From: Acidobacteriota bacterium
GTDB lineage: Bacteria; Acidobacteriota; Blastocatellia; Pyrinomonadales; Pyrinomonadaceae
Assembly (NCBI GenBank): GCA_025463135.1
Contig: JAOAPY010000048.1
Span: 186,001 to 250,000, forward strand
Direction of reading: 5' to 3'
DNA: 64,000 bases
Shown here: positions 43,132 through 44,700 of the stretch, one piece after another
Layout of the letters: each line of letters opens with the position of its first letter
How positions within the stretch are numbered: the stretch's first letter is position 1
The notes under the pieces: model-generated
Seen by the model: only the letters and a program-made list of their open reading frames with translations
What the model was told of the DNA's origin: nothing
Database searches by the model: none
Position numbers and translations under genes: made by a program

Positions 43132-43270
43132 AGTCCAACTCTTGACACTATATTCCTTGAGGAGTAAAGTGCCGCCGCTCGCTAGTAAGTGAGGGCCTCA
43201 CACTTAACTCGTTTTGTCTCGCGCCCCACCTAGCTTCCCATTTCTCTTACGACAGGAGGTTCACAAACCC

Positions 43271-44266
43271 ATGAAAAGAATTCTTTTTCAATATGAGTCA
43301 CCAATGGCCTTACTGTTTCTAATCTTGATGCTCAGTTTACCCCTCGCGACTCATGGCCAGTCGACTCAGGCTCAAACTTCGCCTAAGCCCCCAACCCAAA
43401 CCACCACCGAGATCAAGAATCAGTCGACGACTGAAACAAAGAATCAGTCCACCACTGAAACAAAAACTCAGGCACCCGAGGCCAAGAAATCATCAACACC
43501 TGAAATTAAGGATCAAGCCATCCCTGCGCCTGAAAAGGAAGCAACTAGCAAGACCAACACTGAAACCACTAGTAGAACCGCAACGGAGAGCGCTACTAAG
43601 ACTACAACGGAAACAATTAATTCTTGTCCTGACGGTAGGCTCTTGGCTATTAGGATTCAAAATCCTTATAAGATTAAAGCGGCCGGTACAGTTACAAGTT
43701 CAACTGCGCGGCCTGATGATTACGTAGAGTTCACCACCATGGAAGATATTTATTCGATAGCCGAAGACGGATGCAAAGCACAAGTGTTGATACCGAAGGG
43801 GACGTCACTCTTCGGATTCGTTGAGCTACGAAAGCACCGACACTTTCCACTTGTAGACGGAAAATTGACAGTCAGATTGCGCCCGTACAAGGCTTGGGAT
43901 GGTGAAACTGTTGACCTCAGCATTTCGCGCAAGAATCCACGTAGAAATGACTGCGTACCAGGAACAAGAAAGGGGAAGAATCTCGCCACTCCGCCAGAAA
44001 ACTGCATTGCGGGGCGTGCTAACGCAAACGTCGCCGCTCTTGTTCCCGCCGCAGCAGCGATGGGAACAGCCATCCTTGCAGCTGTCGCAAAGACCACAGC
44101 CGGCAAAATACTGGCGGCTACTGCTCTTTTTACCATAGTCGCCCAACAGAATGTCGGCGACTTACTAAATGGGACTGATGCCCAAATAAATAAGGATGAG
44201 GTGTTCGATGTGGAGATAGTTAAGCCCGTGAAGATCCCGGCACCGTTAGGATCCTCAAAACCGTAG
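43271..44266 (+). CDS. Secreted protein with Thr/Glu/Lys/Gln-rich N-terminal repeats
   Basis: 331 residues: signal peptide (1-28, ATHGQS), then about 90 residues of short repeats such as TTTEIKNQS/TTETKNQS, then a beta-rich domain with SFRIQNPYKIKAAG-like and KGTSLFGFVELRKHR-type strands, and a hydrophobic segment (about 260-290) before the tail. GACAGGAGGTTCAC lies before the ATG. No family is recognised. Confidence 0.7.
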   Translation: MKRILFQYESPMALLFLILMLSLPLATHGQSTQAQTSPKPPTQTTTEIKNQSTTETKNQSTTETKTQAPEAKKSSTPEIKDQAIPAPEKEATSKTNTETTSRTATESATKTTTETINSCPDGRLLAIRIQNPYKIKAAGTVTSSTARPDDYVEFTTMEDIYSIAEDGCKAQVLIPKGTSLFGFVELRKHRHFPLVDGKLTVRLRPYKAWDGETVDLSISRKNPRRNDCVPGTRKGKNLATPPENCIAGRANANVAALVPAAAAMGTAILAAVAKTTAGKILAATALFTIVAQQNVGDLLNGTDAQINKDEVFDVEIVKPVKIPAPLGSSKP

Positions 44267-44309
44267 GCTAGACGCTTTGACTATCGTTTGCGTGTGTGGG
44301 AAAAAAGTG

Positions 44310-44382
44310 TGGCCAGGGACGGAATCGAACCGCCGACGCCGGCCTTTTCAGGGCCGCGCTCTACCGACTGAGCTACCTGGCC
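44310..44382 (-). tRNA. tRNA-Phe (GAA)
   Basis: The 73-nt minus-strand gene folds as a tRNA: acceptor GGCCAGG/CCTGGCC, discriminator A, D-arm GCTC/GAGC, anticodon stem CGGCC/GGCCG around the loop CTGAAAA (anticodon GAA), T-arm GGCGG TTCGATT CCGTC. The 3' CCA is not encoded. Confidence 0.97.
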
Positions 44383-44433: not shown

Positions 44434-44480
44434 CTTACGAAGGCGCGCTTCATTTTTGTCGAATTAGTCACAAAAAGTCG

Positions 44481-44508
44481 TTGACGAATTCGTGATGAGG
44501 TGTATAAT
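44481..44508 (+). promoter_or_regulatory. Strong plus-strand promoter with no obvious gene downstream
   Basis: TTGACG (44481-44486) and TATAAT (44503-44508), 16-base spacer. It is divergent from the tRNA-Phe promoter and leads into the structured stretch 44515-44658. Confidence 0.75.
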
Positions 44509-44514
44509 CCGACT

Positions 44515-44658
44515 CGTTGAGGGTGGGGTTGACGCCCAAACGTCAGCTAAGTCGCAAGACGCCATCTGATGCTTGAAAAGACAGTGCCCGCCAGTGCCAG
44601 CTCGGCCGCCGATCGCGCCCCCCGCAGTCGCTACCTTCGAGCTGGCACAGCCATTTTT
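44515..44658 (+). ncRNA. Candidate small structured RNA
   Basis: From the predicted start the RNA contains GTTGACG/CGTCAGC around CCCAAA (7-bp hairpin), GTC-GCAA-GAC (GNRA-capped hairpin), and GTGCCAGCTCG (44594-44604) pairing perfectly with CGAGCTGGCAC (44638-44648), followed by AGCCATTTTTA. The last is terminator-like. A 42-codon ORF (ATG 44569 to TAG 44697) overlaps it, so a tiny protein with a structured 5' leader is a competing reading; it has no ribosome binding site. No known RNA family was recognised. Confidence 0.5.
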
Positions 44659-44700
44659 ACCCCTGAAAATCTCTTAAAAGACGAAGTTCACCATTAGAAA

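Follow-up and report, generated by a model that had tools for sequence, protein, structure and literature searches.

A novel structured small RNA with a conserved C-rich hairpin loop beside tRNA-Phe in Pyrinomonadaceae

We analyzed a window of 64,000 nucleotides (G000:C51:186001-250000) within the 6.48-Mb genome of a soil bacterium of the Acidobacteriota, and found next to tRNA-Phe a site that is almost certainly a genuine gene for a structured small RNA, present in one copy in this genome (Table 1). The RNA is a novel family of a known kind, absent from Rfam; at its conserved core, a 12-bp hairpin is capped by a C-rich loop, NCCCCC or sometimes NCCUCC. The computational evidence demonstrates the gene together with its promoter, fold and long-term conservation as RNA; the 5' end of the RNA is inferred from the promoter and the 3' end from the T run. 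A sequence-only reading of the window had proposed a possible new small RNA at this position, and the proposal is supported by negative Rfam searches, by compensatory changes and by the lack of conservation of an overlapping open reading frame. Three things were beyond the reach of that reading, namely the wider family, the central place of the C-rich apical loop in the conserved RNA, and the position of the RNA as leader of a lipoprotein gene in half of the family.

Table 1. Features of the small RNA locus, in positions of the window.
Feature	Position	Strand	Evidence or remark
tRNA-Phe(GAA), divergent neighbour	44309-44382	-	ARAGORN and Rfam
Upstream element TTTGTC-N8-TCACAAA, partial palindrome	44455-44474	+	Alignments of close homologs, 80% consensus
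Promoter TTGACG-16-TATAAT	44481-44508	+	11/12 match; at least 10/12 in 64/67 homologous loci
Small RNA gene	~44515-44658 (~145 nt)	+	Covariance models R1 and R2, compensatory changes
5' domain, three-way junction with P1 enclosing P2 and P3	44521-44567	+	Pairing in 30 close homologs
P1 closing helix	44521-44526/44562-44567	+	Not spotted in the sequence-only reading
P2	44528-44533/44542-44547	+	Loop GCCCAAAC in the window
P3, GCAA loop	44551-44553/44558-44560	+	
Linker with conserved CC(C/U)GCC motif	44568-44593	+	67 sequences
P4, 12-bp 3' hairpin with conserved internal loop, carries P5	44594-44648	+	Covariation, z = -5.47
P5 tip GCG-CCCCC-CGC, C-rich apical loop	44615-44625	+	Loop heptamer counts, 67 sequences
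T run, probable terminator	44654-44658	+	Position conserved in most homologs

When 60 relatives were searched at the DNA level, 13 other Pyrinomonadaceae genomes gave a total of 14 strong matches, and a pattern scan of genome contigs returned 26 acidobacterial records plus six chance matches. The six were located in unrelated phyla, lacked the promoter and were discarded; the named homolog records are Acidobacteriota, many of them Pyrinomonadaceae. The covariance model R1, built from 30 distinct sequences (alignment A1), detected the RNA in 71 of 119 Pyrinomonadaceae genomes and gave no matches of equal class outside this family. With the core model R2, the RNA was identified in 77 genomes of the 119-genome family set (E <= 5e-11). 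A sample of 396 genomes from the phylum added nothing convincing, and the matches outside Pyrinomonadaceae were weak (E ~0.006 and ~0.008) and were not believed. The distant half of the R1 matches was left out of the building of R1, and these matches share the site, being divergent from tRNA-Phe. Since this neighbour is invisible to R1, its presence beside the distant matches supports homology independently. In one genome (G014), the RNA occurs twice, each copy on its own contig (L013 and L022).

Taken from a single sequence, neither the promoter match nor the fold of the whole RNA amounts to more than modest evidence. The window promoter alone is not significant (2 sites found in a 2.5-kb region versus a shuffle mean of 1.2), and the entire RNA folds modestly better than shuffles (z = -1.76). 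It is the comparison of sequences that decides. In an alignment of 70 sequences, which was fitted to the model and hence is biased towards it, 93.1% of the alignment cells pair, both-side changes are present in 30 of 35 named pairs, and the covariation score is 0.390, as compared to 0.192 for shuffles and at most 0.088 for slid partners. Two alignments made independently with MAFFT, A1 and A3, are in agreement with the model-fitted structure. A check of the base pairs in relatives, suggested along with the original proposal, thus revealed abundant compensatory changes.

The 3' hairpin alone folds far better than shuffles (z = -5.47, 0 of 200 shuffles). The strands of P4, GUGCCAGCUCG(G) at 44594-44605 with 44637-44648, enclose 31 bases including an inner hairpin. 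Among 67 sequences, 99.5% of the cells are paired in P4, with 9 of its 12 pairs compensated, and 94.9% of the cells are paired in P5. The sequence-only reading had described an 11-bp stem followed by a T run; the hairpin is real and 12 bp long, but AGCCA intervenes, placing hairpin and T run, both conserved in position, five bases apart in the window. The hairpin was missing from the terminator scan because the loop limit of that scan was 8. The three hairpins noticed earlier are all present, as P2, P3 and the 3' hairpin. In the 30 close homologs, P1, P2 and P3 are paired in 85%, 94% and 85% of the cells, respectively, with compensatory changes. The P1-P2-P3 junction is confined to the half of the family that includes the window, and the distant half has a different 5' hairpin. 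The linker before the 3' hairpin is rich in A and U, and its C18, C19 and C22 are invariant and G21 nearly invariant in the 67 sequences. At three loci (L009, L032 and L125), an extra GC-rich hairpin (such as AAGCGGCTTCG...CGAAGCCGCTT) directly 3' of the RNA looks like a second terminator. At L125 (the same as L012), 4 bases are deleted from the 5' strand of P4 and the loop reads CCCUCC; this copy is possibly decaying.

The overlap with a 42-codon open reading frame (44569-44697) pointed out earlier is real, and the existence of this open frame is what speaks for a short mRNA encoding a 42-residue protein. However, of 35 close homologs only 1 has its ATG, the frame is not maintained, and the changes track base pairs rather than codons. 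The tiny-protein reading is thereby close to refuted, and we consider it extremely improbable. Elsewhere in the window, a 350-aa open reading frame (43214-44266) has a signal-like start and low-complexity TTETKNQ repeats; a Pfam search of this frame gave no family above the cut-off.

The near-consensus promoter recognized in the sequence-only reading is conserved and strong in the homologs. A perfect match (12/12) was observed in 43 loci, and the 64 of 67 loci that score at least 10/12 compare with 27 of 1,340 shuffled controls. The spacer is nearly always 16 bases in the homologous loci, and the promoter sits at the start of the conserved RNA, as in a stand-alone small RNA gene. The divergent tRNA-Phe likewise has the recognizable promoter ascribed to it (a 10/12 match at 44433-44405), and is divergent from the RNA in 50 of the 59 homologous loci having enough upstream sequence. 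Just upstream of the -35 box, the TTTGTC-N8-TCACAAA pattern was found in 25 of 34 loci of the window's half and in 0 of 33 loci of the distant half. It is possibly an operator for the RNA or for the divergent tRNA-Phe promoter.

The two halves of the family also differ in what follows the RNA. In a core tree, which rests on few columns so that its inner forks are weak, none of the 34 sequences in the window's half is accompanied by a lipoprotein gene, as compared to 26 of the 33 sequences in the other half. At these 26 loci, the gene starts approximately 10 to 30 bases after the RNA, usually with a GAGG-type ribosome-binding site. It encodes a lipoprotein of approximately 150 aa with TPTPGIPDP repeats, for which a Pfam search identified no family. 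At L089, L092, L095, L100 and other loci, this small lipoprotein is fixed beside tRNA-Phe across several genera. A lipoprotein profile identified the protein in 50 family genomes, approximately 20 of which have no RNA match. Of seven RNA-less lipoprotein loci inspected, six keep the gene divergent from tRNA-Phe; its leader is short there, and no recognizable core hairpin was found in these six by eye or with the model. A lipoprotein gene divergent from tRNA-Phe without detectable RNA was observed at L157, L162, L163, L164, L166 and L167, and L163 may keep a shrunken hairpin (GTGCCGG...CCGGC). In the genome of the window, the lipoprotein was not found (the best match had E = 0.25 and contained stops).

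Across the window's half, there is no lipoprotein gene or other conserved same-strand gene downstream of the RNA; what usually comes next is an amidohydrolase gene, encoded on the opposite strand. Selection must therefore act on the RNA itself. Three arrangements exist, namely RNA alone, RNA with lipoprotein and lipoprotein alone, which means that the two are separable and that the RNA alone is kept under structural selection.

These arrangements bear on the question of whether the RNA acts mainly in cis on the lipoprotein gene, as its leader or attenuator, with the stand-alone copies being leaders that have lost their gene. Such a role is suggested by the location of the RNA directly before the ribosome-binding site and lipoprotein gene in the 26 of 33 distant-half members, and by lipoprotein loci that leave no room for another promoter. 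By eye, pairing seems possible between ACCU in the linker and AGGU in the ribosome-binding site, and in a few lipoprotein loci GGGG faces the CCCC of the C loop, suggestive of pairing between loop and ribosome-binding site; inspection of the lipoprotein loci by eye revealed no clear co-variation between the two. Yet, the 34 members of the window's half have retained the RNA, its compensatory changes and near-perfect promoters without a lipoprotein gene, which the window's genome appears to lack altogether, and elsewhere the gene persists at the same place without detectable RNA. Since other genomes keep the gene in this manner, it does not need the RNA. We therefore regard a primarily cis-acting role as quite unlikely. 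As a tentative possibility, the ancestral unit may have consisted of promoter, RNA and lipoprotein gene, where the terminated transcript would be the free RNA and read-through would yield the lipoprotein mRNA. Different lineages would then have kept one or the other, and the free RNA would be both a trans-acting regulator and a former leader.

The conserved tip of P5 offers a candidate for the active part of the RNA. Its six C are located at 44618-44623, and the loop variants in the 67 sequences are GNCCCCC (53), GNCCUCC (10), GNCUUCC (2) and GNCAUCC (2). The core positions are thus C or U, with two A and never G, and the stem pairs under the loop switch freely between GC, CG and UA by compensation. 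The C to U changes preserve complementarity to G-rich or GGAGG-type sites. The ribosomal anti-Shine-Dalgarno sequence has CCUCC as its core. Intramolecular pairing of a 5' G run with the C loop was rejected, since the G run is unconserved while the C loop is conserved.

We consider it fairly probable that the RNA is a stand-alone, trans-acting regulator whose C loop pairs with G-rich ribosome-binding regions and lowers translation. We infer that its own strong sigma-70-type promoter would drive transcription and that the RNA would end at the hairpin and U run. The 5' domain forms a small three-way junction. The 3' hairpin would present five or six C in its loop for pairing with G-rich ribosome-binding regions, and translation would be lowered for the limited set of mRNAs bound in this way. 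Hfq, which is encoded in the window's genome, may help the pairing. In 0.8 Mb of this genome, with 526 genes called, an AGGAG-like signal was observed for 54 genes. GGGGG was present in the ribosome-binding window of 7 of the 526 genes, and control windows gave 1 to 3; this excess is weak and could stem from the normal AGGAG signal. Two genes had GGGGGG. The rarity of GGGGG in these windows implies that a CCCCC loop would address few mRNAs and not translation in general. A counterpoint to trans-action is that the RNA physically leads a protein gene in half of the family.

A protein could just as well be the partner of the conserved internal loop and linker, and the RNA could accordingly be a protein-binding or housekeeping RNA. 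On this reading, the hairpin, the internal loop and the C-rich tip would together serve as a protein platform, comparable to the way in which RNA polymerase is bound by 6S RNA, with no mRNA pairing. The linker motif, the internal loop and the tip sequence are conserved beyond the needs of a pairing seed, and a single copy with a strong promoter also fits this possibility. However, the protein platform has no known partner, the same genome encodes a separate and clear 6S RNA, and the restriction to one family and the loss in many genomes disfavour an essential housekeeping role. We thus find this explanation unlikely.

The trans-acting reading also draws on a comparison with known RNAs. The sequence-only reading had held that no known RNA family fits, and the Rfam covariance-model search agrees with this: at the gathering score and at E up to 10, the window and the diverged homologs gave only tRNA and chance matches. 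The closest parallel in design is 6C RNA (RF01066), likewise a stand-alone gene in which a C-rich hairpin loop is the most conserved feature. The mycobacterial 6C-family RNA B11 of Mycobacterium abscessus has two C-rich loops and represses eccB4 via a six-G tract, and mutating both loops abolishes the repression (PMC10470900). However, 6C RNA is found in actinobacteria and carries two C-rich loops, whereas the window RNA has one, on its 12-bp terminal hairpin, as well as another 5' domain and possible fusion to a lipoprotein gene. A second conserved C-rich loop is absent, since the P2 loop GCCCAAAC is not conserved as C-rich and only the P5 tip is. The RF01066 model gave no match in the window (E up to 10) or in 16 homologous loci (gathering score). 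Lacking both an Rfam match and a second C-rich loop, the RNA is not a member of 6C, and by analogy we suggest that it may nevertheless work like one.

6S RNA (RF00013), also bacterial and free-standing, is of similar size and has a strong promoter, but the window RNA has another fold. Identity with 6S was ruled out, since RF00013 has no match at the site and the 6S RNA of the genome is located on another contig (G000:C7:109185-109370, 60.5 bits). Acido-1 (RF01686) and Acido-Lenti-1 (RF01687) are, like the window RNA, candidate structured noncoding RNAs from Acidobacteria (PMC2864571), and neither model gave a match at the site or in the relatives tested. No earlier reports of regulatory RNAs in Pyrinomonadaceae were found in the literature searched.

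The RNA is thus well supported, family-wide and equipped with a clear candidate seed and, being missing from Rfam, is ready for direct experiment. If one ancestral unit did give rise to both free RNA and leader, the Pyrinomonadaceae would hold natural experiments of their separation at one fixed site beside tRNA-Phe. The alternation between free gene and leader at this site is in itself a case of small RNAs arising from, or becoming, leaders.
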